The notes under the pieces: generated by a model
Told to the model about the DNA's origin: nothing
The model's database searches: none
Seen by the model: the letters and a program-made list of their open reading frames with translations, nothing else
Program-made: the position numbers and the translations under genes
Assembly: GCF_016106035.1 (NCBI RefSeq)
Contig: NZ_JADKPZ010000012.1
Coordinates: forward strand, 1 to 64,000
Direction: 5' to 3'
Length of the DNA stretch: 64,000 nucleotides
Origin: Arcobacter vandammei
Lineage (GTDB): Bacteria > Campylobacterota > Campylobacteria > Campylobacterales > Arcobacteraceae
Shown: piece after piece, positions 24,375 to 39,153 of the stretch
Position numbering within the stretch: the first letter of the stretch is position 1
Layout of the letters: the number at the start of each line of letters is the position of its first letter

Positions 24375-25339
24375 TGAAAATCTCTTCAATAGTTGATATT
24401 ATAGATGGAGAGCTCTTAAACTCTCCATCTATCTCTTTTATAAATGATATAAAAACTGATGTAAACAAAGTTAAAACTTCTGATTTATTTATAGCAAAAA
24501 ATTTAGTTGATTTAAAAGAATCTATACAAAATGGTGCTTATGCAGTTATTTTTGAAGAAGATTTTCCAATACTTGATAGTGAAGTAGCATTTATAAAAGT
24601 AAAAGATTTAAATCTAAGTATTATTAAACTTCTTAGATATAAACTTTCAAATCTAAAACTTGAAGCATTTTTTTGCAAAGATGATAGTTTTGATATGTTA
24701 AAGCTTTATTATCAAAATCATAAAAAACCTATTTTTCTTGTACCAAAAAATATAGAAAAAATGTTTAGATTTATAGATGAGATAAAAGAAAATAATATTT
24801 TAATTTCCAAAAATCAAGAGATTTTAACTAGTATCTACCCAAAAAATGAAAAGTTTGAAAAAGATATTTCAAAAAAAGAGATTACAAACCTAATAAAACA
24901 CTCTTTATTTGAGATAAGTTTTTCATATAAAAATCACTATTTTTCAAGAATTAAATTAGCAAATATATATATTGATAGCTTTTTAAATATTTTTAACTTT
25001 TTTAACAAAGATATTGATATTTCAAAGCTAAAAAACTACTCAAACTTCAAAGCTATTTTTATAGATAAGAATTTTGAACCAATTGATTTTGGGAAAAGTG
25101 ATAGATTTATAATTTGTCAAAACAATATAAATTTAGTTGAAATAGAAAAAGAGTATTTAAATAGTGAGTTTAAGTATGCAAAAACTATATTTATTTCAAA
25201 AAATAGTATAAAAAACTTAGATGAGATAAAAGATATTTTAAAAAATCAAACTTTCAACTGTGCATATTTAATAGGATTTTCTTATAAAGAGATTTTTGAA
25301 TATCTTCAAAAATCTCAAAATTCCCCTACACTTTTTTAA
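24374..25339 (+). CDS. MurF N-domain-like protein lacking an ATP site
   Basis: A 321-aa protein. Residues 1-75 (SIVDIIDGELLN, then IKTDVNKVKTSDLFIAKN and IQNGAYAVIFEE) resemble the UDP-binding N-terminal domain of Mur ligases, especially MurF. The middle and C-terminal parts show no Walker A loop (no GxxGKT) or other catalytic Mur motif, so this is not an active ligase as read. No signal peptide or membrane helix is seen. The GTG start overlaps the metG stop by one base, implying coupling. A role related to peptidoglycan precursors is only a suggestion. Its last bases overlap the tpsB stop. Confidence 0.6.
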   Translation: MKISSIVDIIDGELLNSPSISFINDIKTDVNKVKTSDLFIAKNLVDLKESIQNGAYAVIFEEDFPILDSEVAFIKVKDLNLSIIKLLRYKLSNLKLEAFFCKDDSFDMLKLYYQNHKKPIFLVPKNIEKMFRFIDEIKENNILISKNQEILTSIYPKNEKFEKDISKKEITNLIKHSLFEISFSYKNHYFSRIKLANIYIDSFLNIFNFFNKDIDISKLKNYSNFKAIFIDKNFEPIDFGKSDRFIICQNNINLVEIEKEYLNSEFKYAKTIFISKNSIKNLDEIKDILKNQTFNCAYLIGFSYKEIFEYLQKSQNSPTLF

Positions 25340-26991
25340 AACACCCAACCAGCTTGAAATAGTAATTTACTATTTTGATGTGGTTCATTTTTATCTGAAA
25401 CTTCATGATTTATAGCCCAAGCCATTTGAACTCTTGCGAAAAAATCTTTATAGTTTGCATAGTATCCAAAACCAACATCTTGAAGAGTTTTTCTTTTAAA
25501 TGTTACATCTTGTTTCTCTTCATATACATTTCCCATATCATAAAACAGTCCAACTCTATGAGAATAAGAGTTTATTTTTGGAAGGTTTGAAAGAAGTTCT
25601 AGGTTTAGCATATATCCATTTTCTGCACTTTGTTCACTATCTGGATATACTTTAACACCATATGCTCCACCAAGATATATATCTTCATTTCCATTTAGGT
25701 TTTTATTTCCTAAAACTTTTTGAGCTGTTAGGTTTGATTTCAAAGAAAATATTTCACTAAAGTAAATATCATTTGCTATATAAGCATCTATTTTATTATA
25801 GTTTCCATCATTTACTTTATTTAGTGTTGAATTTAGATGTCCTGTTGTGAAATTTAAGTTTGCAAATACTCTAGCTGGAAGATTAAAGAAAGAGTAATTT
25901 TTATCATAATCCAAACTTGCAACAAAAGAGTTTATATTTCTTTTTTCATCTAGATTAAAACTAGAATCCATATAATCATTTAAATCTTTATGAAAGTATT
26001 TACCTTTTAGGTAAAGGTTTTCATTTGTAGATCTAATAAGTGGATAAGACAATCCTACTTCATAGATATTTGAGTTACCTTTAGCATCCAATGGTTTATA
26101 CTCTTTTACCAAATCATAGTTTGTTCTACTATAAGCAAAATCAGCTTTTAAGCCATAAGAGTTTAGAGGAACTTCATAGGCTAATTTACCATTTTTCAAA
26201 TCAGCACCATTTGAAATTAATCCTGAAAGGGATAGTTTATCACCAACACCAATTAAGCTATTTATATTTACCAAAGTTTGAAGTCTATAGTAACCTGTAT
26301 ATCTACTTCCATAATTATCTGCAACAACATATCCATCTACTCTAGGAGTTGCAAGAGTATAAACTGTTATATTACTTGTTCCTAGGCTATTTCCAGGTTC
26401 TATTACAGAGCTAGAGATTTGTACTCCTGCTCTATCATTTATAAGTAATAAGGCTCTTTCTATATCTTTTACATTTATAGTTTCATTTGATTTTGAATTA
26501 TTTAAAATAGCTTCTAAAGAGTTATCATTTACTAAAGAGCTATTATTTAGTTTTATATCTTCATAATTTCCTTCAACTATAGAGATTTGTAAAGCATTAT
26601 CATTTTTAAGCAAATCTTGTTTACCTAAATATGCTCTTGCAACGAAGTATCTTTTATCTCTATAAGTTTTAGTTACTATTGCTAAAACTTCTTGAATTTG
26701 ATTAAAAGTTAATTCTTTATTTACATAATTTTTAACTACATCAGAAAGTTCATCATTTGATATTTTACTATTACCTACAAAAGTAAAGTTTTTTACAAAT
26801 ACTTTTTGCGTACTATCATTAGTTTTTACGCTATCACTTTTTACACCTTCAATATTTATATCATCTTTTTTAAATGTTGGAATATCTCTTGGTGTTTGTA
26901 TTTGTCTATCTATTGTATTACTATTTGGAGTTGCTCCTAGTAGTAAAATACTACTTAGAAGCGATAATCCTATTATTCTATTTATTCTCAT
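25336..26991 (-). CDS. Two-partner secretion outer-membrane transporter (TpsB)
   Basis: An FhaC/ShlB/HecB-type pore that exports one large exoprotein across the outer membrane. After a signal peptide (IIGLSLLSSILLLGATP) come a short linker, POTRA domains (FVKNFTFVGNSKISNDELSD; LQISIVEGNYEDIKL) and a 16-strand barrel ending in an aromatic residue (KLLFQAGWVF). The VRVDGYVVADNYGSRYTG-like segment opens the barrel domain. The first ATG pair lies in AAGGAGATAATGATG; I take the second for better spacing. The gene begins inside the 3' end of the exoprotein gene (14-bp overlap), which is upstream, so its translation depends on the exoprotein mRNA. In Aliarcobacter butzleri genes of this type are called hecB. 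Confidence 0.9.
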   Translation of the reverse strand: MRINRIIGLSLLSSILLLGATPNSNTIDRQIQTPRDIPTFKKDDINIEGVKSDSVKTNDSTQKVFVKNFTFVGNSKISNDELSDVVKNYVNKELTFNQIQEVLAIVTKTYRDKRYFVARAYLGKQDLLKNDNALQISIVEGNYEDIKLNNSSLVNDNSLEAILNNSKSNETINVKDIERALLLINDRAGVQISSSVIEPGNSLGTSNITVYTLATPRVDGYVVADNYGSRYTGYYRLQTLVNINSLIGVGDKLSLSGLISNGADLKNGKLAYEVPLNSYGLKADFAYSRTNYDLVKEYKPLDAKGNSNIYEVGLSYPLIRSTNENLYLKGKYFHKDLNDYMDSSFNLDEKRNINSFVASLDYDKNYSFFNLPARVFANLNFTTGHLNSTLNKVNDGNYNKIDAYIANDIYFSEIFSLKSNLTAQKVLGNKNLNGNEDIYLGGAYGVKVYPDSEQSAENGYMLNLELLSNLPKINSYSHRVGLFYDMGNVYEEKQDVTFKRKTLQDVGFGYYANYKDFFARVQMAWAINHEVSDKNEPHQNSKLLFQAGWVF

Positions 26992-29900
26992 CATTATCTC
27001 CTTGTGTTGTTGAAAGGTCTGCTAGGTTTGTTGCTACATTTATTGGAGTATTTACTCCACCATTTATAATTCTTGTATTATTCATATTTCCAAAAGACAA
27101 TGTTTGTATATCGCCTATAATATTTGCAATTGGGTTATTTAAAATTTTTGGTTCTATACTATCTACTATTTTTCTAATTTCAGAATTTGAATCAACAGCT
27201 GGAGCAGGTTTTATATTTAAATCTCCAGCTAAATAAGTAATATCATAGTTTTGAGCAGATAATCCACTTCCATCTATTGTATATGTTCCAACAGCTGTCG
27301 CTCCTTGACTATCTCCACTATAAGACAAACTTCCACTTAATACACTCTCATCTTCATTATTTACAAATCCACTATAAGAAACTCCTTTACCACCACTATA
27401 AGCTACTCCATAATAAGTTTTTGAGTCATCATTTAGTGTTGCAGTTAGGTCTGCTTTATCTATAGTTAATTTACCATCTACAAATGTTAGATTATAGTTT
27501 TTATCTGTTCCACTTAATGTTGTTGTATAAGTTCCTGCATTTGTTCCACTTACACTAGCTCCAATTATTCCCGTTAATACTGAATTTGTCTCATTATTTA
27601 CTAATCCACTTGCTGTAAATCCACTTACACTTTGAGCTAATCCATTATAAGTTTTTATATCAGAGTTTGCTGTTACAGTTGCGTTTGCTTTATTTATAGT
27701 ATATGTTCCATCTGTATATGAGATATTATAATTATCTGCACTTAAACCACTTAAATTTGTAGTATATGTTCCTGCATCTTTAACTGATATTCCACCACTT
27801 AATGTTCCACCTAAAACAGAATTTGTTTCACTATTTACAAATCCACTATAATTTACATTACTATTATAAACCAAACCATCATAAGTTTTTGAGCCATTTG
27901 AAGAGCTAACTACTAAATCTGCTTTATTTATAGTTAATTTTCCATCTACAAATTTTAGATTATAGTTTGAATCTGTTCCACTTAATGTTGTTGTATAAGT
28001 TCCTGCATTTGTTCCACTTACACTAGCTCCAATTATTCCCGTTAATACTGAATTTGTCTCATTATTTACTAATCCACTTGCTGTAAATCCACTTACACTT
28101 TGAGCTAATCCATTATAAGTTTTTATATCAGAGTTTGCTGTTACAGTTGCGTTTGCTTTAGTGATATTTGCTGATAAAGTTCCATTAAAACTACCTATTA
28201 AATTATAGTTTCCTGCATCTGCACCACTTAAAGCGATATTTGAAATAGTTACATTTATATTATCTGCTACATTTTTATCATCAAAATTTGCACTTTGAGT
28301 AAATCCTATATTATCGTTTGCAATAAAATTACCAGAACTTCCACTTACACTTGCTATTGTAGTTCCATCATAAACTTTATTATTAGCTGTATAAGATACA
28401 TTGCTTACATCTTTTTTAGAAATACTTGCTGTTGTAGTAGCTGTTTTATCTGTTTCTTTTATTTTATAATTTGAAGCCAAACCTGTTCCAGTTCCCAAAC
28501 TATACTCTACATTTACAGTTTTTCCAGTTCCTGCATTTTTATCTTCAAATCCTGCTGAATAGTTCAAAGCTAAAGTTTCAGTTCCAACCAAACCAGTTAA
28601 TGTTCCAGCATTTGTAACTGTTGCATTTGTACCTCCATCATAAGTTTTGTTTACTCCTGCAATTGAACCATTTGAGATTTCTAACTCTCTTTGAGTGATA
28701 CTTGCTGTTAAGCTACTTGGTGCTATAACATTGTAATTTCCTGCATCATTACCAGTTAAATAAACTCCAGAAAGAGTTATATTATGAGTTCCTACATTTT
28801 GATTAGTAAATTGAGCTGTTGGTGTGCCACTTAAAGATACAACATCATTTTCAAATTTACCTTCATATCCAACAGTTTCTATATTTAAAGTTGCTATTGT
28901 ATTTCCGTTATAAACTTTATCATTTGCAGTTAATCCAGTGATTGTCAAATCTGCTCTAGAGATATTTGCTGTTGTAGTTTTAGAAGTTTGTTTTAAGTTA
29001 TAGTTTGAAGCTAGATTTGTATCTTTATCTGCAATTGTATATCCACTTATAGTTACAGTTTTTTCAGCTCCTACATTTTTATTATCAAACTCTGCACTAG
29101 TATAAGCCAACTCCAACTCTTCATCGTCAACCAATCCAACTAGCTTTCCAACATTTGACAATGTAGCATCTCTACTTGCATTATAAGTTTTATTTTCTGC
29201 TGTTACACTATCTATTGTCAAATCTTTTTTCAAAATATTTGCTGTTGTGGTAGCTGTTTCTTGTCCTGCTTTTATCTTATAATTTGAAGCTTTAACGCTT
29301 CCATTATCTGATAAATAATATTTTACATTTATAGTTTTATTTTCTCCTACATTTTTATCTTCAAAATTTGCTAAATAAGAAAAATTAATACTTTCACCAG
29401 GCACAAATCCACCCATTGTTGCAGAAACTGAAAGTGTTGCATTTGTACTTCCGTCATAAGTTTTGGTATTTCCTAAAATATAATCACTATAGATATTTAA
29501 TTCTTTTTGAGTGATACTTGCTCTTAAGCTACTTGGTGCTATAACATTGTAGTTTGCTGAATTATCACCACTTAAAGTAAATCCAGAGATATTTACTTGA
29601 TGAGTTCCTACATCTTTATTTGCAAATGTACCTGTTGGTGTGCCAATTAAAGATACACTATCGCCTGGGATTAATCCTGAATATTGAAGATTTCCTATCT
29701 TTACACTTGCTGTTGTATTTCCGTCATAAACTTTATTATCAGCAGTTAATCCACTGATGATTGTCAAGTTTGCTTTTGTAATTTCCAATTTACCTTGAGT
29801 GATATTTAAAGTATAGTTATCTGCAACTCCACTTTGTGTAATATTTGTATTATAAGTACCTACATTTTTACTAGAACTAGTTGTTGTTTCTCCACTTAAA

Positions 29901-32900
29901 GCAAAAACACTAGCTGTATCACTTCCTAAAAGTTTATTTGTTCCAAATGTATATCCACTAACACTTTGAGTTTGTCCATTGTAAACCTTGCTATCAGAAT
30001 TTGCGACAATATCAAGCTGTGCTTTATTTATAGTCAAAGTTCCTTTTGTACCAACTCCTGCAACTGTAAACTCGTCTGTTCCAGTTAAAACAACTCCAAT
30101 ATTTTCGTATGTTCCTGCATTTTGATACCCTAAAACATCGCCTTTATCATCTACAAATTTAAAACTCATACCATCTGTACCAAAAATAGCTTGTGAAGTA
30201 TAGATAGAACTTAGGTTTTGAAGTAAACCATTATAAGTAACTGCTTCATTTGACAAATTACCAGTGATAGTTTTTGGTGCTATTGCCCAAACATATTTAT
30301 TTGTCGCAGTATCCCATTTTAAAACGGGTTTTCCAGTAGTCAAACTACTATCTGCAACTATATCCCAACCAGCTGTTTTATATACAGTTCCATGACTCAT
30401 TTGCTCTGTTGTAAGTCCTGTAACTCCAGTTGTAGTTCCACCACCTACACCAGCTCCAGTGAATTTTTCATTATCATAAAAAGAGTTTGTAATTCCCCCA
30501 TAAGAATATCCAACCAAACCTCCTTTATAAGAAGCTTGTCCAACTAAAATTGTACTAGCATAAGAGTTTTCGATTGTTGCCCCTTGTTCATTTAATCCAA
30601 CCAAACCTCCTATATAAAAATCTCCTTTTACATCTCCAGCAGCATAAGAGTTTTTTATCGTTCCATTGTTTCTTCCACCAAATACTCCAGCATACTGTCC
30701 ATATACATCTCCAGTAACATAAGAGTTTTCAATTGTTCCATAGTTTTCTCCAAACAATCCACCAACTTGATAATTTCCACTTATACTTACACCAACTAAA
30801 CCAAGATTTTTTATAGTTGAATCAACTCCTATCCATCCAAAAAGTGCTTGCTCACTAGATGTTTTATTTATAACAAGATTTGAGATAGTATTTCCAAATC
30901 CGTCAAAATGCCCATTAAATTGATTTGAAATATTATTTCCTATCGCATTCCAGTTGTTTGTATATCCTACACTTCCATTATTTAGATTATTTACTAAAGA
31001 TAGATAATAGCCTTTTGTTAGGATATTTGCATTGTTTATATTTTGCAACTGTGTCCAGTTTGTAATAGTATATGGATTTGCTTCTGTACCATATCCACCA
31101 GCAAAAAGTGTGCTTGTAGGTTTATAAAAAGTTTTCAGTTGTGGAAGTAAAATAGTATCCGTAGCATAGCCTTCAAAATCAGCACCACTTGTAGCCCAAC
31201 CATCAACTCCTTTAAATGCTTCTAAAATCTCAGCTTGTGTTTTTCCTCTACTATAAGTATCATAACCAGGAAAATATACATTCTTATCATAGTATGAATT
31301 TTCAGTTGTCGAACCATAATATTCAATTCCAGCAAGTCCATCATTATACCAAGCTCCACTATTAATAATAGTGCTTGTATATGAGTTTTTTATTGTTCCT
31401 GCATTTACTCCAGCAATACCACCAGAATATCCTTGAAATCCCTTTATAGTCCCTTTTGTATATGAGTTTTCTATTACTCCACTTCCAATATAACCAACCA
31501 AGCCACCTACTTCTTTATCTCCCTCTACTTGTCCAGAAAAATAACTATTTTTTATATTACTACTTCCATTAGAACCAACCAATCCACCTACTTTTTCAGT
31601 TCCATAAACATTACCAGTTACAGATACATTTTCGATTAATGAATTAAGTCCATTGCTTCCAACCAATGCTCCTACATTATTACCACTCACTTGTACTAGC
31701 ACATCTCTTAAATTAACATTTCTTATAATTGCTCCCCAAGTTGCACCGAAAAGCCCTTTATTCTCTCCAAGACTAGAAACTGCAAAATTTGATATAGTAT
31801 GTCCAAGCCCATCAAACTTTCCCATAAAGTAATTACTAGGAATACCATTTGCTCCTGTTCCAATTGGTGTCCAGACAACACCGTTTAAGTCTATATTGCT
31901 TCCTAATACATAACTTAGTGATTTGTTGTTATTCATATTTTGTAAAGCACTAGCACTATTTACAATAGTCCAGTTAATCTCTGTATCTGTACCTTTTTTT
32001 GTTTTAAAACTTGTACCATTTGCTAGATTTACTTTTGCACCATTATTTACATAATAGTTTCCAGTTACATTTGTTTGTGCATAAACCAAAGATAAACCAC
32101 CATTTCCAGTTACATTTATCTCTTTGTTTATATTTATATCATTTCCAGCTTTTAGTTGTAATGTATTTATATCGTATGAGATAGCTTCATTTACATTTAT
32201 ATTATTATCTGCTTCGATAAATACATTTATATTACCAAGTATTAAAGCATTTTCAATTGCACTTGCACTTACACTTGCACCTGTTAAAGAATTTCCACCA
32301 TTTGACTCTATTGTTACATTCTCTGGGTCTAAAAGCCAAGTTTTAGCTTCTATTTTAAAACTATCTTTTACAGATAGCTTTTCTCCACTTGTTTCTACAA
32401 AACTTCCTTTTGCATTTATAGTTCCATCTATATTTGCAGTTCCACCATGAGCGAAGATTATCACTTCACTTTGAGTTAAATCATCTAGTGAAGCAGCTTC
32501 TATTATTCCTGTATTATTTACTACACCTTTAAGCAATTCATTTTTTGCATTTGTTGTAAGATAGATATTTCCACCATTTGCAATTAAAAGATTATTGTTT
32601 TCTACAAGTGCATCGAGAACACCTTTAGTTACTTTTAGGGAGATATTTGAGTTTTCATCTAGTGAAATAGTAAAATCATTTGCACCAGTAAGATTTATAT
32701 TTCCAGTATGTACTTTGATAGTACCGTTGTTTATTACAGAGTTTGCTATAAAAGAGGCATATTTTTCGCTATATATTTCAGCTAAATTTTCAATACTTGC
32801 ACTTGAATCTCCTTTGAAAGAGTAGTTTCCTTTTTGGAAATCATCATCGCTTAGGTTTTTAGTTGTTACGAGTAAACCACCTACATTTACTTTTGCATTT

Positions 32901-33256
32901 TTATTAAAAATTGTACCATTTTGGTTTATTAACCAAACTTGTCCATTTGCGTTTAATGCACCATCAATAATAGACTTTTCATTTCCTACAACTCTATTAA
33001 GTGTAATTGAGTTTTGGTTTGGTTGATTGAAATTTACTGTTTCATTTGATTTTATTGAAAAATCTTGCCAATTTATACTGGCTTTTTCGCTAGATTGATT
33101 TATGTTTGTTGTGTTGCCACTTTGATTTATAGTTGCATTTCCACTAGTCAGCGTTCCACCTGTTGGTGCTGCATATAAGTTTGAAGATACAACAAGGGAG
33201 ATAAGCCCACCTTTTAGTATCCTAAATCTGTTTTTATATTCATGATTTTGGTACAT
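26978..33256 (-). CDS. Giant two-partner secretion exoprotein (TpsA, filamentous haemagglutinin type)
   Basis: A 2092-aa secreted adhesin-like protein. It begins with an extended signal peptide (basic MYQNHEYKNRFRILKG, then a hydrophobic core to NLYAAP), then the TPS secretion domain (about 28-260) with NEKSIIDGALNANGQVWLIN and NQNGTIFNK as family motifs. Residues about 400-990 are a beta-helix with GLUG-type repeats (GGLVGSNGSSNIKNSYFSG). Residues about 1010-2020 hold about a dozen YDG/MBG-type beta modules (KVYDGNTTASV, KTYDGSTNATL, KTYNGLAQSVSG). No toxin domain or Cys hook is seen at the C-terminus. Two modules are exact 189-bp copies. Its promoter shares a 25-bp motif with the TonB-receptor operon. 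Such genes in A. butzleri are called hecA. Confidence 0.9.
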   Translation of the reverse strand: MYQNHEYKNRFRILKGGLISLVVSSNLYAAPTGGTLTSGNATINQSGNTTNINQSSEKASINWQDFSIKSNETVNFNQPNQNSITLNRVVGNEKSIIDGALNANGQVWLINQNGTIFNKNAKVNVGGLLVTTKNLSDDDFQKGNYSFKGDSSASIENLAEIYSEKYASFIANSVINNGTIKVHTGNINLTGANDFTISLDENSNISLKVTKGVLDALVENNNLLIANGGNIYLTTNAKNELLKGVVNNTGIIEAASLDDLTQSEVIIFAHGGTANIDGTINAKGSFVETSGEKLSVKDSFKIEAKTWLLDPENVTIESNGGNSLTGASVSASAIENALILGNINVFIEADNNINVNEAISYDINTLQLKAGNDININKEINVTGNGGLSLVYAQTNVTGNYYVNNGAKVNLANGTSFKTKKGTDTEINWTIVNSASALQNMNNNKSLSYVLGSNIDLNGVVWTPIGTGANGIPSNYFMGKFDGLGHTISNFAVSSLGENKGLFGATWGAIIRNVNLRDVLVQVSGNNVGALVGSNGLNSLIENVSVTGNVYGTEKVGGLVGSNGSSNIKNSYFSGQVEGDKEVGGLVGYIGSGVIENSYTKGTIKGFQGYSGGIAGVNAGTIKNSYTSTIINSGAWYNDGLAGIEYYGSTTENSYYDKNVYFPGYDTYSRGKTQAEILEAFKGVDGWATSGADFEGYATDTILLPQLKTFYKPTSTLFAGGYGTEANPYTITNWTQLQNINNANILTKGYYLSLVNNLNNGSVGYTNNWNAIGNNISNQFNGHFDGFGNTISNLVINKTSSEQALFGWIGVDSTIKNLGLVGVSISGNYQVGGLFGENYGTIENSYVTGDVYGQYAGVFGGRNNGTIKNSYAAGDVKGDFYIGGLVGLNEQGATIENSYASTILVGQASYKGGLVGYSYGGITNSFYDNEKFTGAGVGGGTTTGVTGLTTEQMSHGTVYKTAGWDIVADSSLTTGKPVLKWDTATNKYVWAIAPKTITGNLSNEAVTYNGLLQNLSSIYTSQAIFGTDGMSFKFVDDKGDVLGYQNAGTYENIGVVLTGTDEFTVAGVGTKGTLTINKAQLDIVANSDSKVYNGQTQSVSGYTFGTNKLLGSDTASVFALSGETTTSSSKNVGTYNTNITQSGVADNYTLNITQGKLEITKANLTIISGLTADNKVYDGNTTASVKIGNLQYSGLIPGDSVSLIGTPTGTFANKDVGTHQVNISGFTLSGDNSANYNVIAPSSLRASITQKELNIYSDYILGNTKTYDGSTNATLSVSATMGGFVPGESINFSYLANFEDKNVGENKTINVKYYLSDNGSVKASNYKIKAGQETATTTANILKKDLTIDSVTAENKTYNASRDATLSNVGKLVGLVDDEELELAYTSAEFDNKNVGAEKTVTISGYTIADKDTNLASNYNLKQTSKTTTANISRADLTITGLTANDKVYNGNTIATLNIETVGYEGKFENDVVSLSGTPTAQFTNQNVGTHNITLSGVYLTGNDAGNYNVIAPSSLTASITQRELEISNGSIAGVNKTYDGGTNATVTNAGTLTGLVGTETLALNYSAGFEDKNAGTGKTVNVEYSLGTGTGLASNYKIKETDKTATTTASISKKDVSNVSYTANNKVYDGTTIASVSGSSGNFIANDNIGFTQSANFDDKNVADNINVTISNIALSGADAGNYNLIGSFNGTLSANITKANATVTANSDIKTYNGLAQSVSGFTASGLVNNETNSVLTGIIGASVSGTNAGTYTTTLSGTDSNYNLKFVDGKLTINKADLVVSSSNGSKTYDGLVYNSNVNYSGFVNSETNSVLGGTLSGGISVKDAGTYTTNLSGLSADNYNISYTDGTYTINKANATVTANSDIKTYNGLAQSVSGFTASGLVNNETNSVLTGIIGASVSGTNAGTYTTTLSGTDKNYNLTFVDGKLTIDKADLTATLNDDSKTYYGVAYSGGKGVSYSGFVNNEDESVLSGSLSYSGDSQGATAVGTYTIDGSGLSAQNYDITYLAGDLNIKPAPAVDSNSEIRKIVDSIEPKILNNPIANIIGDIQTLSFGNMNNTRIINGGVNTPINVATNLADLSTTQGDNDENK
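27504..27692 (-). repeat. Exact 189-bp direct repeat in the exoprotein gene, copy B (3')
   Basis: Identical base for base to 27972-28160, offset 468 bp (156 codons, in frame). It encodes 63 residues of an MBG-type module, near residues 1855-1917, including KTYNGLAQSVSGFTASG. Confidence 0.93.
27972..28160 (-). repeat. Exact 189-bp direct repeat in the exoprotein gene, copy A (5')
   Basis: Partner of 27504-27692; falls near residues 1699-1761. One recombination event between the copies would remove or add 468 bp without changing frame. Confidence 0.93.
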
Positions 33257-33285: not shown

Positions 33286-33323
33286 ATTATAAACAAAGAG
33301 TGTGATGAAGTGTGAAGTTTTTT
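33286..33323 (-). promoter_or_regulatory. Exoprotein promoter: 25-bp shared motif plus TATAAT
   Basis: Reading on the minus strand, the motif at 33323-33299 contains TTCACACTTCATCACACT, with two TCACAC half-sites 10 bp apart. Then 7 bases and TATAAT (33291-33286). The same 25 bp and the same spacing occur upstream of the TonB-receptor gene at 39116-39153. It occupies the -35 region, the place where OmpR-family activators often bind. AAGGAG follows near 33262-33268 as ribosome site. Confidence 0.75.
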
Positions 33324-33375
33324 TGCTTTTTTTAAAGAAATTTTGAAATTCTTTTGTTTTTTCTTTTTTTTCTTA

Positions 33376-33426
33376 GGAACTAAGGTTTTCTCTCAGAGAG
33401 TTCTAAAGCACAAAAACCTTAGCTTT
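33376..33426. repeat. 51-bp palindromic repeat, left copy
   Basis: Begins GGAACTAAGG and ends CCTTAGCTTT. CTAAGGTTTT pairs with AAAACCTTAG to give a 10-bp outer stem. It differs from the copy at 33755-33805 at 6 of 51 positions, one pair of which (positions 11 and 41) is compensatory. It could also end the transcript coming from the left, but is better read as a mobile hairpin element. Confidence 0.7.
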
Positions 33427-33441
33427 TTTTGCTAAGATTAA

Positions 33442-33748
33442 AATCTCAATTCCAGAAAATTGCAAAATGAAATATTTGTAAATGATTTACTAAAATTAGC
33501 AAAAAAAGAAGTTGTTTTAATAGATAACTATATAGATGATACTGTTTTTACTCTGTTTGGAACTGGGACTGAAGTCCCAGCTATTGATTGGACTAAAGTC
33601 CAATTTCCTAAATTCTCACGATAGATTTTTAATTTTAGATAAAAAAGAGATTTATCATATTGGAGCTAGTTTTAAGGATTTGGGTAAAAAATGGTTCGCT
33701 TTTTCTAAAATGAGTTTAGATATAGATGAGATTTTGGGTAAATTGTAG
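33442..33748 (+). pseudogene. Decayed C-terminal part of an ORF6N/PLD-like protein
   Basis: Two pieces of one reading can be recognised. The first (from 33442) reads KLQNEIFVNDLLKLAKKEVV then LIDNYIDDTVFTLF; the second (about 33605-33748), in another frame, reads SHDRFLILDKKEIYHIGASF then KDLGKKWFAFSK. Both match the C-terminal domain of a family often annotated as ORF6N-domain or DNA-binding proteins in Campylobacterota, with the PLD-like HDR-x-L-x-D stretch. The middle of that domain is missing and a 50-bp double hairpin sits in its place; the N-terminal part is also absent. No start codon or ribosome site is sensible. I treat it as a remnant, not a gene. Confidence 0.65.
33555..33605. repeat. 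Double-hairpin insertion inside the pseudogene
   Basis: Two consecutive perfect 8-bp stems: CTGGGACT-GA-AGTCCCAG (33563-33580) and ATTGGACT-AA-AGTCCAAT (33587-33604). Both have a GGACT-NN-AGTCC core. The unit starts with GGAACT like the two 51-bp elements on either side, so it may be a variant of the same element. Confidence 0.65.
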
Positions 33749-33754
33749 GAGTTT

Positions 33755-33805
33755 GGAACTAAGGATTTCTCACAGAGAGTGCTTTAGCACAAAATCCTTA
33801 GCTTT
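33755..33805. repeat. 51-bp palindromic repeat, right copy
   Basis: Direct-orientation copy of 33376-33426. The outer stem is CTAAGGATTT / AAATCCTTAG; an inner perfect stem GTGC-TTTA-GCAC is present here but imperfect in the left copy. It begins 7 bp after the pseudogene stop and lies just outside the toxin gene's 3' end. Confidence 0.7.
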
Positions 33806-33820
33806 AAGAAATTAAAAATA

Positions 33821-34186
33821 TCAAGAATTTAACAATTTATAAACTGGATTTAAAGTTTTCATAATAGTGCTATGAATTTGAAATAAAAGAGCCTTATCTA
33901 CTTGTCCAATTTTTTTCTCAAATCTTTCAACCGAAAAACTTTTTATTTGAAAACACTCTATCGAAGACTCTTTAGATAATCCATTTTCACTATTTGGATT
34001 AATTCTTATAATCCAAGGATAGTTACTATAAAAATCTTTCCATTCAGTAATCGGAACTACAATTTTTATTCCAAATCTTCCAACTCTATCATCATTTACA
34101 ACTATTGCTGGACGAAGTTTTTTTATCTCACTTCCAATACTTGGTTCAAAATCTATCAACCATATTTCACCTTGATTAATATTCAT
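33821..34186 (-). CDS. MazF/PemK-family toxin (mRNA interferase)
   Basis: A type II toxin of 121 aa, expected to cut mRNA at short sequences. MazF hallmarks are INQGEIWLIDFEPSIGSEIK at the N-terminus, RPAIVVNDD, the VVPIT strand and the later KSFSVERFEKKIGQVDK. I start at 34186 because GAGGA lies 5-6 bases upstream; an ATG 12 bases earlier overlaps that site. It overlaps the antitoxin gene by 11 bp, the usual coupled arrangement. The pair lies between the regulator gene and the palindromic repeats, in what looks like a patch of accessory DNA. Confidence 0.88.
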   Translation of the reverse strand: MNINQGEIWLIDFEPSIGSEIKKLRPAIVVNDDRVGRFGIKIVVPITEWKDFYSNYPWIIRINPNSENGLSKESSIECFQIKSFSVERFEKKIGQVDKALLFQIHSTIMKTLNPVYKLLNS

Positions 34187-34415
34187 AAATATCCTCATTT
34201 GAACTAGCTAATGTTTTAGATAACTCTTTATATTCTTTATCTTTTGAAGCCAACAATGCACCTTTTTCCCATTTTTCAAGCTCTTTTTTTTCCAAATAAT
34301 TCTCTAAAGCCTCTTTATATATAGCTGAAATAGATGTTTTTAACTCATCTTTTACACTTAAAAGTCTATTTTTCAATTCAAAAGGGATAGTAACTGTGAT
34401 TTTTTCTGATACCAT
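34176..34415 (-). CDS. Ribbon-helix-helix antitoxin
   Basis: A 79-aa antitoxin partner of the MazF-type toxin. The N-terminal KITVTIPFELKNRLLSVKDE forms a typical ribbon-helix-helix DNA-binding unit; the acidic C-terminal tail (EKWEKGALLASKDKEYKELS) would wrap the toxin. An AAGGAG precedes the ATG. Such antitoxins usually repress their own promoter, and the AT-rich 56-bp gap up to the regulator gene at 34472 would hold it. Confidence 0.85.
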   Translation of the reverse strand: MVSEKITVTIPFELKNRLLSVKDELKTSISAIYKEALENYLEKKELEKWEKGALLASKDKEYKELSKTLASSNEDIYEY

Positions 34416-34471
34416 ATTTATCTCCTTATTTTTTGCCTTATTATATCAATGTACAATTTATATGTCAAATA

Positions 34472-35161
34472 TTATTTCACCCTCAAACTATACCCAATAC
34501 CATAAACACTTACAAGGCTATCTTTTGGAAGTTTTTTTCTCAAAGAACTAACCAAAGATTTAACACTATCAATAGAAATTTCACTATTAAAATCACTCCA
34601 ACAACAAGCCATAATATCTTCAATACTTATAGATTTTTGCACATTTTTTACAAAAAGTTCTAGTAAATCTGCCTCTTTTTTGCTTAGTTTTAATTCAAAC
34701 TCTCCTATATAAAGCTTTTTATTTATCATATTAAAATGCAAATTTTCATCAATTTTTACTATCTTTGTAGAGTTTCTTTCCAAATCAAGGGAGATTTTAT
34801 CTAGCATATCTTTTATTTTTTGCAAGCTTGCTGGTTTTGTAATATAGTAGTTTACATCTGTATTTATCGCATCTAAAAGCAAAGAATCTTTTGAAAAAGC
34901 TGTTATTAAAACTATTTTTGTTTTATGGTCATTTTTTCTTATTATTTTTGTTAATTCCATACCACTTAAAAATGGCATATAAATATCTAGTACCAAAACA
35001 TCTGGTTTTTTCTCATCATAAAGTTTCAAAGCCTCTTTTCCGTCATCACAAACAAAAACCTCTTTAAAATAGCTAGAAAAATACTCCAACATCTCTTTTT
35101 GTATAGCCTTATCATCTTCTGCATAAAGAAGTGTAAAATTTTTTAGGTTTTCTTTACTCAT
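34472..35161 (-). CDS. OmpR-family response regulator of the TonB-receptor operon
   Basis: A 229-aa transcription factor. The receiver domain (about 9-122) has the acidic pair in YAEDD, phosphorylation site D59 (DVLVLDIYMPFLSGME) and YYITKPAS with the conserved Lys. A winged-helix DNA-binding domain follows (about 140-229; FELKLSKKEADLLELFVKN, SVKSLVSSLRKKLP, VYGIGYSLRVK). The start overlaps the kinase stop (ATGA); an in-frame GTG 9 bases upstream is less likely. It is the natural candidate for binding the direct-repeat motif found before the receptor gene and the exoprotein gene. Confidence 0.9.
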   Translation of the reverse strand: MSKENLKNFTLLYAEDDKAIQKEMLEYFSSYFKEVFVCDDGKEALKLYDEKKPDVLVLDIYMPFLSGMELTKIIRKNDHKTKIVLITAFSKDSLLLDAINTDVNYYITKPASLQKIKDMLDKISLDLERNSTKIVKIDENLHFNMINKKLYIGEFELKLSKKEADLLELFVKNVQKSISIEDIMACCWSDFNSEISIDSVKSLVSSLRKKLPKDSLVSVYGIGYSLRVK

Positions 35162-36537
35162 AGTTCCCACCCCTTAATATCTGCTTTTGGGATAATTAAA
35201 GTAAATTTTGCTCCTTTTTGGCTATTTTCTACTTTTATATCTCCACCAAAACTATTTAACATAATCATTTTTGCTATATAAAGTCCCATTCCAGTTCCAC
35301 CACTTTTATATTTTGTTGTAAAGTATGGCTCAAAAATCCTATCGATATTTTTATCCTCAACTCCTAGTGCATTATCTTCAATTTGTACAAAAATTCTATT
35401 TTCATCTTCAACTATATCTATATTTATCACTTTTTCCTCTATATTTCTCTCTTTAAAAATATCTATCGAATTTGATAAAATAGATATAAAAATCTGCATA
35501 AATTCACTCTCAAAAGCATCTATAAAAATCTCTTTTTTATTTAAATTTATATTCACATCTTTTAGTGAAGTGTTTAAAACTTTTAGGCTTTTTTCTATTG
35601 CAGAAGATATTTCAAAGTTCTGTTTTGCTTTGTTTGGGTTTAAAAACTCTCTAAAAGTTTCTATTGTATTTGACATAAAATAAACTGTGTTTGAAATATC
35701 TTCAAGTCTTTGTTGCAGATACTTTTCATCGTACTTATTAAGCTCAATATTTCTATCTACATTTAGTAAAATAGCACTTATTTTCATCAAAGGTTGTCGC
35801 CATTGATGAGCTATGTTATCAAGCATTTCTCCCATAGAAGCCAAACGATTTTTTTGCATAATATCTTTTTCGTAAATAATTCTTTTTTCAACTTCCTCTT
35901 CTATCTTTTTTATCATTTTAAAAGCACTGTTATTTATGATAGAGACTTCATTTTTATAGTTCTCTTCTTCAAAAATACTCTTTTGGTTTAGGCTATAATT
36001 TAGCATTTTATCTTTTAGTTGCATTAGAGATTTTAGATTAAACCTTATCAAAAAAGATGAGATAAGAAGAGAGAAAATAAAGAGCAAAACAATATAAAAC
36101 AAAAAAACATAAAACTCATTTAGAAGTTTTGAGTAGATAGATGAAAAAGTGTAGTAAATGTACAAATCCCCTATTTTATCTTTTAAAATAGTATCGCTTA
36201 AAGTCAAATAGTAAATTCTAGAACCTTTTATACTATCTTTATACTCTTCATGAACAATTTTTTTATCAATATCAATTATTTTTATACCGATTACCTCTTT
36301 ATGCTCTTTTAGGTTTTCTCTTACAAACTCTTTTATATTTTCTTGCAAACCCAAAGTAAGATTTATTGATATTATCGGAGCTAAAGTTTTAACTATTGAG
36401 TCGATTTTTTCATCTTCAAGTACAACTAGCTGATTTGATACTATTGAATAATTTCTTTGTATAAGAATAGCTATAAAAATAGTAAAAACTATTATATTTA
36501 TAAGTGCAATTTGAGTTAAGATACTTAAGTTTTTCAT
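35158..36537 (-). CDS. Membrane sensor histidine kinase
   Basis: A 459-aa kinase with two membrane helices (about residues 8-27 and 141-166) enclosing a periplasmic sensor domain of about 110 residues (SIVSNQLVVLEDEKIDSIVK, VIGIKIIDIDKKIVHEE, CACHE- or YfiN-like). A linker with a coiled coil follows, then the phospho-acceptor MGEMLDNIAHQWRQPL with H244, and an ATPase domain (ILSNSIDIF, EDNALGV, GTGMGLYIAK). It is partnered by the overlapping regulator gene downstream and overlaps the YfiR-like gene upstream by 4 bp. The periplasmic domain probably receives a signal from the YfiR-like protein. Confidence 0.9.
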   Translation of the reverse strand: MKNLSILTQIALINIIVFTIFIAILIQRNYSIVSNQLVVLEDEKIDSIVKTLAPIISINLTLGLQENIKEFVRENLKEHKEVIGIKIIDIDKKIVHEEYKDSIKGSRIYYLTLSDTILKDKIGDLYIYYTFSSIYSKLLNEFYVFLFYIVLLFIFSLLISSFLIRFNLKSLMQLKDKMLNYSLNQKSIFEEENYKNEVSIINNSAFKMIKKIEEEVEKRIIYEKDIMQKNRLASMGEMLDNIAHQWRQPLMKISAILLNVDRNIELNKYDEKYLQQRLEDISNTVYFMSNTIETFREFLNPNKAKQNFEISSAIEKSLKVLNTSLKDVNINLNKKEIFIDAFESEFMQIFISILSNSIDIFKERNIEEKVINIDIVEDENRIFVQIEDNALGVEDKNIDRIFEPYFTTKYKSGGTGMGLYIAKMIMLNSFGGDIKVENSQKGAKFTLIIPKADIKGWEL

Positions 36538-37064
36538 CTTATTTTTACCACATTAAATATTGAATTTTGAAGCTCAATTTCGCTATTTTTTAAAGCTTGA
36601 AGATTTAAAAATATATCTATTTTTGCACTAATTTTTAAAGCAAAAATTACTCCAAAATCCAAATAACTATCATCATAAGCAAAACTTAGACGGCTATTTT
36701 TTTCTAAAATATTAGAAATTTGAGTAATATTCTCTTTTTTTCCAAGTAAAAATAGATATGCTGTTGATAAATTATCACTTCTAAAATCACTATATTTTTG
36801 CAAATTTACTTCAAAAGGCAAATCTTTTAAAATTTCATAGTTTTTCTCTATTTTTTCTTTCAAACTTTGTGCTGTGTTTAAATCTATCTCTTCATAAAAC
36901 AAAGTTAAAACTATTTTATTGTCTATTAGTTTTTTCTCGAAGTCATTATCTGAAATTATAATTTTTGGAAATACTTTTGCTTGAATATCAAGAATTTTTG
37001 GATTATAAACTACATTTGCAAATAAAGATGTAGAAAAAAAACAGAGTAGTAGTCTAAAAATCAT
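36534..37064 (-). CDS. YfiR-like (DUF4154-type) periplasmic protein
   Basis: A 176-aa exported protein with signal peptide MIFRLLLCFFSTSLFANVVY. The mature part resembles YfiR: an early VFPKIIISDND segment, VLTLFYEEIDLNTAQSLKEK, then STAYLFLLGKKENITQISN, LSFAYDDSYLDFGVIFALKI and IDIFLNLQALKNSEIELQNS, the last matching the conserved YfiR C-terminal pattern. In Pseudomonas, YfiR binds the periplasmic domain of a membrane enzyme and represses it. Here it lies between a TonB-dependent receptor and a membrane kinase, overlapping both, so I infer it gates the kinase. The ATG at 37064 is preferred over an upstream TTG. The family call rests on pattern only. Confidence 0.7.
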   Translation of the reverse strand: MIFRLLLCFFSTSLFANVVYNPKILDIQAKVFPKIIISDNDFEKKLIDNKIVLTLFYEEIDLNTAQSLKEKIEKNYEILKDLPFEVNLQKYSDFRSDNLSTAYLFLLGKKENITQISNILEKNSRLSFAYDDSYLDFGVIFALKISAKIDIFLNLQALKNSEIELQNSIFNVVKIR

Positions 37065-39087
37065 AAGTAAACCCAGCAAACCAAGTTCGCCCCTCTCTTA
37101 GCATTGTTTCATCTTTTGTTTTATGTCCAAAATAGTAATAATCTTTGTCTAAAATATTTTTAGCTCCAAAAGTAAGTTTTGAATCTTTTGAAAATCTATA
37201 TGTCAAAGTCATATCAAGAAGAGTAAAATCACCTATTTTTCCACCTTGTTCTACTTTTTGTCTAGTTCCATAATATCGCAAAAGTGGGCTAATAGTAAAC
37301 TTTGAATTAATAGCATAAACATATCCCAAAATTGATGTAAGCTTTGGAACAACAGGAGTATTTAAATCCAAATTATTGTAGCTGTTTTTGTACTCAAAAA
37401 TATTGTAAGAGCTATTAAAGAAGAGTTTTGAACGATTTTCAAAAACTTTGCTATATTCTAACTCAACTCCATAGTTGTCTAAATCGCTTTTGTTGTTTGT
37501 AAACTCAAAATTGCTTCCTTTTTGTTTTAAATCAATAGAATTTTTATATATATTATAAAACAAATTTAGCTTCAATTTATCACTACTATTTGCATAAATA
37601 TACATCAATTCAGCACTTTGTACATCTTCATTTTTTAAACTGCTATTTCCATAAGTTGCCAAGTGTCCAACCATAGAGTTTTCAATTAAAGATGGAGTTT
37701 TAGAAGATTTTGAAAGGATAAATTTGTATATATTTTGATTGTCTTTTGAGTAAACTACACCTGCTTTAAAGTTATAAGCATTGTCAAAGCCTTCAAAATC
37801 ATCAAGTTTTGCTAAAAAAGAGAAACTTAAATAATCAGTCGCTGTGTAGGTGTCATTTATATAATATGAAACATTTATTCTATTTTGTATATCAGCTAAA
37901 AAACCATCTTTCCCACTAAATTTTGTTAAGTTTGGAGTATTTGGAAAGTAAGTACCAAGAATTGAAACTCCTACATCATACAGATCATCAACATTTGCAT
38001 AAAAGTTGTTTTTTTCTATACTTGTTCTTGTTACTTGTACTCCATAAGCTATTTCCTGATTATTAAAAGTTGTGTTTTTAAGTAAAAGTGATAAATATAT
38101 ATCTCTTTGAGTGTGGTTCGTTTTAAAATGTGGATTGTAAACATCAATACCTAAAATATTTTCTGGAAGTTTATAAAGATATGTATTGAGTTTGTAGTTA
38201 TTTTGTAAAAATCCTACCTTGCTCTCTAAAAGATTGTTTTGAGAGATATTTTTTATATATTTTAGCTCACTTGAAATTGTCTCATATTTTGTATAACCAG
38301 CATCGTTAAAATCAAGTAAACCAATAAAACCATAGTTATTTTGTTTATTGTTTTTTATATATCTGTTTGAAAACTCTAAATTGTCATCTTTAAAACTAAT
38401 CCCAAAAGCAATATCCTCTTTCCCATCCAAAGACTCTTGTTTTCTATCAAAACTTGTACCAAAATCCTCTGTTGATAAAATCGCACTTGGGGCATATACT
38501 TTTTTGTTGTCTTTTAAGTAGTAAAAGTCAAGACCCATATCATAAGATCCTACTTTTTGATTTATTGAAGTTGAAGCTACTCTTTTATCAAAACTTCCCG
38601 ATTGAAAAGAGATACTATTTTGATTTGGTATAGAGCTTTTTGTAACTATATTTATACTAGCAACAAAACTATAAGGGTTGTTTAATCCCAAAGTAGAACC
38701 TTTTGAGATTTCTATTCTATCTATTAGCGATATTGGAAAACTATCAAAATAGTTTGCACCAATACTAATACCATTTAAAAAAAAGCCTATTTTTTCATAA
38801 ATAGAGTGAAAAGGTTGTGTTTGTCCACGAACTGAAATTAAAGAAGAAGTAGCTGTACTAGAAAAAGTCTGAATACCACTAGCAAAATCCAAAGCTTCAG
38901 CTAAGGTATTTATACCTAAATTTTCTAAATCTGATGAGTATAAAACTGTCATAGCTGTTGGTTTGTAGTCTATGTTTAAGTGTGTTTTATCACTATATTG
39001 GTTCAAATCATATAAGACATTTTCAAGCTCAAAAGAGAACAAAGATAGTGGTAAAACAGAAATAAAAAAGGCTTTTTTGAAACTCAT
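37054..39087 (-). CDS. TonB-dependent outer-membrane receptor
   Basis: A 677-aa receptor with signal peptide (KKAFFISVLPLSLFSFEL), plug domain (about 40-160: MTVLYSSDLENLGINTLAEA, QTFSSTATSSLISVRGQTQP, FLNGISIGANYFDSFPISLI, RIEISKGSTLGLNN) and a 22-strand barrel ending in a terminal Phe (WFAGFTYDF). Ligand cannot be read from sequence; iron chelates, haem, cobalamin or a sugar are all possible. No N-terminal STN signalling domain is seen, so a sigma-factor type relay is unlikely. It leads an operon with the YfiR-like protein, kinase and regulator, with overlaps of 4-11 bp. No tonB or exbBD lies in the window. Its promoter carries the 25-bp motif shared with the exoprotein gene. Confidence 0.9.
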   Translation of the reverse strand: MSFKKAFFISVLPLSLFSFELENVLYDLNQYSDKTHLNIDYKPTAMTVLYSSDLENLGINTLAEALDFASGIQTFSSTATSSLISVRGQTQPFHSIYEKIGFFLNGISIGANYFDSFPISLIDRIEISKGSTLGLNNPYSFVASINIVTKSSIPNQNSISFQSGSFDKRVASTSINQKVGSYDMGLDFYYLKDNKKVYAPSAILSTEDFGTSFDRKQESLDGKEDIAFGISFKDDNLEFSNRYIKNNKQNNYGFIGLLDFNDAGYTKYETISSELKYIKNISQNNLLESKVGFLQNNYKLNTYLYKLPENILGIDVYNPHFKTNHTQRDIYLSLLLKNTTFNNQEIAYGVQVTRTSIEKNNFYANVDDLYDVGVSILGTYFPNTPNLTKFSGKDGFLADIQNRINVSYYINDTYTATDYLSFSFLAKLDDFEGFDNAYNFKAGVVYSKDNQNIYKFILSKSSKTPSLIENSMVGHLATYGNSSLKNEDVQSAELMYIYANSSDKLKLNLFYNIYKNSIDLKQKGSNFEFTNNKSDLDNYGVELEYSKVFENRSKLFFNSSYNIFEYKNSYNNLDLNTPVVPKLTSILGYVYAINSKFTISPLLRYYGTRQKVEQGGKIGDFTLLDMTLTYRFSKDSKLTFGAKNILDKDYYYFGHKTKDETMLREGRTWFAGFTYDF

Positions 39088-39115: not shown

Positions 39116-39153
39116 ATTATATTTAAAAAGTGTGATGAAGTGTGAAGTTTTTT
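39116..39153 (-). promoter_or_regulatory. TonB-receptor operon promoter: 25-bp shared motif plus TATAAT
   Basis: On the minus strand the motif (39153-39129) contains TTCACACTTCATCACACT, then 7 bases, then TATAAT (39121-39116). The 25 bp match the exoprotein promoter exactly and start 42 bases from the ATG, as there. The spacer and flanking bases differ, so this is not simply a copied promoter. Confidence 0.75.

Follow-up and report, generated by a model that had tools for sequence, protein, structure and literature searches.

We analysed a stretch of 64,000 nucleotides from Arcobacter vandammei (contig NZ_JADKPZ010000012.1, positions 1 to 64,000; hereafter the window), which belongs to a 2.2 Mb Aliarcobacter genome (G000 in our set). 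The subject is a four-gene operon for a TonB-dependent receptor (TBDT), a small periplasmic protein with the fold of YfiR, a membrane-bound histidine kinase and an OmpR-family response regulator, together with the neighbouring genes of a two-partner-secretion (TPS) pair. The features of the locus are as follows.

37054-39087, minus strand: TonB-dependent receptor, 677 amino acids; plug and barrel, without an STN domain; short N-terminal arm ELENVLYDLNQYSDKTHLNIDYKPTAMTVLY, of the kind common to the receptors linked to this YfiR-like family
36534-37064, minus strand: YfiR-fold periplasmic protein, 176 amino acids, ATG start; signal peptide, mature part without cysteine
35158-36537, minus strand: sensor histidine kinase, 459 amino acids; transmembrane (TM) segment, periplasmic CHASE8-like sensor, TM segment, DHp (His244), HATPase_c
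34472-35161, minus strand: OmpR-family response regulator, 229 amino acids from ATG; phospho-acceptor Asp62 (counted from GTG)
39116-39145, minus strand: operon promoter element; tandem repeat TCACACTTCATCACACT (39129-39145), then 7 bp to TATAAT; putative binding site of the regulator
26978-33256, minus strand: TpsA, TPS exoprotein, 2092 amino acids (TPS domain, YDG, MBG_2 and GLUG repeats); proposed regulated output
25336-26994, minus strand: TpsB, ShlB/FhaC/HecB-type outer-membrane transporter (POTRA and barrel)
33286-33315, minus strand: tpsA promoter element, with the layout of the operon promoter element; TCACACTTCATCACACT repeat (33299-33315), then 7 bp to TATAAT

Successive genes of the operon overlap by 11 bp (receptor and 176-amino-acid protein), 4 bp (that protein and the kinase) and again 4 bp (kinase and regulator), in the order given by a preliminary description of the window made from the letters alone; the last overlap becomes 13 bp if the regulator uses a possible alternative GTG start at 35170. 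The domains that this description had assigned agree with Pfam, which finds a plug and a barrel in the receptor, HATPase_c in the kinase, and Response_reg and Trans_reg_C in the regulator. The catalytic landmarks of the kinase are all present (His244 in HQWRQPL, the Asn-box and GTGMG), and the phosphotransfer residues of the regulator, Asp62 and Lys112 in the GTG-start numbering, are intact. It had further been claimed that the receptor lacks both an STN domain and the usual anti-sigma and extracytoplasmic function (ECF) sigma partners, and this is borne out: Pfam finds no STN domain, the mature receptor has only about 26 residues ahead of its plug, too few to leave room for one, and no anti-sigma or ECF sigma gene is adjacent, the neighbours being an S24 repressor-like gene and the four genes of the operon. 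Comparison of the receptor with PDB sequences gave no match, and hence no clue to its ligand. A survey of gene order, which the preliminary description had proposed as a check, found the four genes in this order in five further Aliarcobacter genomes, where the overlaps are identical or almost so, and in a genome of another family (G389), in which a 99-bp gap separates the receptor and YfiR-like genes; a close relative of the operon is present in Aliarcobacter vitoriensis. Since other species share both the gene order and the overlaps, the arrangement does not result from chance.

The 176-amino-acid protein is the least obvious member of the operon. Its relatives, collected from 397 Campylobacterota genomes, were found in 47 genomes of 11 genera (the loci L010 and L011 were dropped because they lack a receptor context and have marginal E-values). 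PF13689, the YfiR/HmsC-like DUF4154 family, is matched by 31 of 67 aligned members, at E-values up to 0.1 (best, 5.5e-9), and comparison by hhalign of the profile of these 67 sequences with true DUF4154 proteins of Arcobacteraceae gave an E-value of 6.9e-5, a signal that did not appear with a small alignment. An AlphaFold model built from the 67-sequence alignment reached a pLDDT of 92.2. Its best structural match by Z-score is YfiR of Pseudomonas aeruginosa (4yna_C, Z 15.3, root-mean-square deviation 2.9 over 142 residues), and the YfiR chains (Z 14.4-15.3) stand at the top of all structural matches. Foldseek gave a TM-score of 0.79, by target length, to YfiR chain 4zhu_B; by E-value YfiR is tied with a small substrate-binding protein, yet it has the higher TM-scores. 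Several observations weigh on the other side. Taken alone, the protein has no significant Pfam match, to DUF4154 or otherwise, and scores only E 0.16 against the NCBIfam YfiR model; a first, shallow AlphaFold model, from 9 sequences, failed (pLDDT 42); ATP-binding cassette (ABC) substrate-binding proteins score nearly as high as YfiR (3lkv, Z 14.3; 3lft, Z 13.6); and the disulfide cysteines of P. aeruginosa YfiR are absent, the sole cysteine, Cys8, lying in the signal peptide. Moreover, PDB sequence searches with either family profile returned no YfiR match. We conclude from the predicted structure and the profile comparisons that the protein adopts the YfiR fold and is placed in a sister branch that has diverged. 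The earlier view of it as YfiR-like thus holds for structure and for the family, but not for a DUF4154 match of its own.

The genomic context of this protein family is strikingly constant. We examined 66 loci encoding it in Campylobacterota, which share ancestry, so that the counts that follow are not of independent events. A TBDT gene is the immediate neighbour in 55 of them and lies no more than two genes away in 61. About 9 TBDTs are encoded in the window genome (11 matches to the plug domain, of which some are split), so that chance adjacency would be expected at about 1% per locus. In all 66 loci a membrane protein with the N-terminal sensor region of the window kinase is encoded within three genes, and this shared region is joined to different outputs: GGDEF-EAL in 34 loci, a kinase in 18 and GGDEF in 12, with sensor-only fragments in the remaining 2. 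This constant neighbourhood with varying outputs indicates that receptor, YfiR-fold protein and sensor form a conserved triad whose output is interchangeable. CHASE8 is the periplasmic sensor of YfiN-type proteins, and the profile of the kinase N-terminal region aligns with that of genuine CHASE8 proteins at E 1.8e-14. Against this assignment, generic segments of the TM and HAMP-like kinds contribute part of the match, a weak match to CHASE8 is seen for only 7 of the 68 members taken singly, and the window kinase has no direct Pfam match to CHASE8.

Genuine DUF4154 genes of Arcobacteraceae are organised in a similar way: they also lie beside TBDT genes, with CHASE8-GGDEF, CHASE8-kinase or fused DUF4154-GGDEF partners. 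Their proteins match DUF4154 directly, whereas the window family has diverged into a branch that is paired with a sensor-region branch of its own. In five of the Aliarcobacter loci (L050, L051, L052, L053 and L055), the fused DUF4154-GGDEF protein directly follows the TBDT, giving a receptor with a one-piece YfiR/cyclase system. We read the window operon as one of the output variants of a modular, YfiBNR-like relay, with a TBDT in the place of YfiB. The wiring from receptor through YfiR-like protein to kinase, as the preliminary description had drawn it, is supported to the extent that genomic context can do so, by kinase, GGDEF and GGDEF-EAL outputs that all stand beside these proteins and share one sensor region.

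How the receptor would communicate with the YfiR-fold protein is suggested by its N-terminus. The linked receptors begin with a common arm, typically ...IATKTKLNIDYxPSVVTVL..., with variants, while those other receptors of the window genome whose N-terminus can be read have there a classical box of the LDEI/V type or one closely similar to it. We take the common arm as a candidate site of contact for signalling. One might also suppose that the small YfiR-fold protein binds a ligand in its own right, and that the receptor only imports the ligand, whose complex with this protein is then read by the kinase sensor, with no mechanical coupling to the receptor. TBDTs do import ligands, and the closeness of the YfiR fold to ABC substrate-binding proteins, a likeness also reported for YfiR itself (PMC4655355), makes ligand binding by the periplasmic protein possible. 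We nevertheless consider this explanation rather unlikely, since the common arm, unlike the classical TonB-box start of the other receptors, suggests a signalling contact, and since in the structural comparison the YfiR entries come out ahead of the substrate-binding proteins.

The strongest functional clue that the relay may control a secreted adhesin-like protein is provided by its linkage to tpsA and by a promoter repeat. The neighbouring pair is of the two-partner-secretion type by its domains (TPS domain PF05860, E 6.1e-31, in TpsA; PF03865, E 1.5e-22, and POTRA_2 in TpsB). TpsA adjoins 5 of the 7 loci of the regulator type, versus none of the 59 other loci of the family; among these five is G389, in which tpsA and tpsB are divergent from the receptor gene. 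In Aliarcobacter, a 10-bp tandem repeat precedes both the operon and tpsA, at a distance from the -10 element (TATAAT or TACAAT) of exactly 7 bp at 15 of 15 sites, in six loci of six genomes. The window genome has only two sites within two mismatches, both at this cluster. Among the 31 genomes of the genus that were searched, exact copies occur only in G000, G007, G008, G014 and G030, always at the cluster, and these five are the genomes that carry the full cluster. Read backwards, the motif is almost the same as read forwards, so that the backward-read control of this search is not independent. In G009, a site with one mismatch lies ahead of a relic of the receptor gene. G005 has lost tpsA and tpsB, its regulator is cut to 162 amino acids, within the DNA-binding domain, and one site is kept, with one mismatch in a changed half-site, before an inserted sensor-GGDEF gene that heads the operon. 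This gene, apparently inserted between promoter repeat and receptor, encodes an NMT1/SBP_bac_3-GGDEF sensor (L035:373-2640).

Direct repeats overlapping the -35 region are the typical geometry of OmpR-family activators, as at PhoB-type promoters, and the geometry of the present repeat would fit such an activator. The motif shared by the two promoters points to control of both the operon and the neighbouring adhesin genes by the regulator, and the TPS operon is its probable target. What speaks against this is that no TCACACTTCATCACACT-type motif was found in the intergenic regions searched before the G389 genes. The divergent tpsA/receptor intergenic region of that genome (L181 7070-7281) holds a single, different 11-bp tandem repeat, AGTATCATCGG, a candidate site of the diverged G389 regulator. 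Alternatively, the repeat could be bound by a different regulator, the operon's own regulator acting elsewhere, and G005, which retains a one-mismatch copy despite its truncated regulator, could be read in this way. We hold this to be improbable, because exact copies are confined to operon-carrying genomes and to the cluster, because the direct repeat over the -35 region fits an OmpR-family activator, and because the very genome with the cut regulator has also lost tpsA and tpsB and has a changed half-site. Still less probable is that the receptor serves ordinary uptake of a nutrient or of iron and has its own two-component regulation, with the 176-amino-acid protein as a transport accessory and the TPS genes as accidental neighbours: receptor genes with adjacent regulators are indeed common, but a sensor protein is always encoded near the YfiR-like gene, whereas the output domain varies, one fixed-spacing repeat confined to the cluster precedes both tpsA and the receptor gene, and the linkage to TpsA recurs in another family.

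We therefore favour, as likely when taken as a whole, a trans-envelope relay that would run from the TBDT through the YfiR-fold protein and the kinase to the OmpR-family regulator, and from there to the operon itself and to tpsA-tpsB. Binding or transport of a ligand by the TBDT would change the availability or the state of the YfiR-fold protein, the short N-terminal arm of the receptor offering the simplest route between the two. The YfiR-fold protein would in turn gate the kinase by way of the CHASE8-like periplasmic sensor; its role is probably inhibitory, with release or sequestration upon stimulation on the pattern of YfiBNR. The regulator, once phosphorylated by the kinase, would bind the repeat overlapping the -35 region and switch on its own operon and tpsA-tpsB; sensing at the surface would thus lead to the display of a large secreted protein, presumed to be an adhesin. 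In this scheme the contacts between the proteins, the sign of each step, the binding of the repeat by this particular regulator and the adhesin role of TpsA are inferred, whereas the gene content and order, the YfiR fold, the conservation of sensor region and context, and the fixed-spacing repeat confined to the cluster come from the computation itself. The preliminary description had named an unrelated 176-amino-acid protein and a gene order not kept elsewhere as findings that would overturn its scheme, and neither was encountered; it had overlooked, however, both the widespread modular family and the probable TPS target.

Two known types of system invite comparison. In P. aeruginosa, YfiR bridges the outer-membrane protein YfiB and the inner-membrane protein YfiN, and the YfiBNR (TpbB/YfiN) system resembles that of the window in having a periplasmic YfiR-fold protein that links, or in the window would link, a partner in the outer membrane with an inner-membrane protein whose periplasmic sensor is CHASE8/PAS-like, in the window kinase putatively so (PMC4655355). 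It differs in that its outer-membrane partner is the OmpA-like lipoprotein YfiB rather than a TBDT, in that its output is a diguanylate cyclase rather than a histidine kinase with a DNA-binding regulator, and in that the YfiR-like protein of the window has no disulfides. Signalling through STN domain, anti-sigma and ECF sigma factor likewise leads from a TonB-type outer-membrane component to transcription, and in P. aeruginosa one such system, PUMA3 (VreA-VreR-VreI), has a TPS pair near its own locus under its control as well (PMC2729926); in the window operon, the STN domain, anti-sigma and ECF sigma are all replaced by a YfiR-fold protein and a two-component pair. The window system works like a cross between YfiBNR and STN/ECF signalling and is a member of neither. 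The hecA and hecB genes of Arcobacter butzleri RM4018, TPS-type putative virulence genes, are similar in protein type (a filamentous-haemagglutinin-type exoprotein and its transporter), and the passages of PMC2147049 that deal with them assign them no regulator. A TBDT-YfiR-kinase operon was not described in the open-access literature searched, which is weak evidence of novelty. The operon may represent a route from a TonB receptor to the cell interior other than that through STN, anti-sigma and ECF sigma, using one adaptor family with interchangeable kinase and cyclic di-GMP outputs, and it comes with a concrete proposed regulon, the operon and a large TPS adhesin.

A further lead concerns the ligands of related receptors. 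In 19 of the 34 GGDEF-EAL loci, a gene for an acyltransferase of the LuxI/FeeM superfamily lies near the receptor gene, usually just upstream, which makes an acylated signal of the bacterium's own making a plausible ligand for those receptors; no such gene was found in any of the kinase or GGDEF loci. When 7 of these acyltransferases were scanned against Pfam, 2 exceeded the Autoind_synth cut-off. Examples are the following.

L039:2068-2706, GGDEF-EAL locus: LuxI/FeeM-superfamily acyltransferase, candidate synthase of the receptor's ligand
L091:2607-3194, GGDEF-EAL locus: same type
L104:7733-8329, GGDEF-EAL locus: same type

A search of the window genome, made without a positive control, gave no LuxI/FeeM-like match, and we accordingly do not claim an autoinducer synthase beside the window operon. 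One might tentatively speculate that Campylobacterota possess modular relays in which TBDTs serve as signal receptors and the YfiR-fold protein as universal adaptor to kinase or cyclic di-GMP outputs, the GGDEF-EAL branch performing quorum sensing through a TonB receptor with an acyltransferase-made signal. The acyltransferases are candidates for acyl-signal synthases with a linkage to TonB receptors in this phylum.

Some smaller features of the locus may be added. Between the regulator and tpsA, the window carries on the minus strand (33821-34420) a PemK/MazF-type toxin gene with a small antitoxin-like open reading frame (ORF) upstream. Two related imperfect palindromes (GCTAAGGATTTTGTGCTAAAGCACTCTCTGTGAGAAATCCTTAG-like) lie between the toxin gene and tpsA, at about 33740-33790 and 33370-33420, and are a candidate repeated element. 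In other species, small ORFs stand in the toxin interval instead, and ahead of them lies the promoter repeat in a third copy. At L034 (1903-2576, minus strand), a small ORF after the regulator contains an 18-bp tandem repeat encoding (EIEEEF)n, with the TCACACT promoter repeat ahead of it, and the copy number of (EIEEEF)n varies among L034, L036 and L037.

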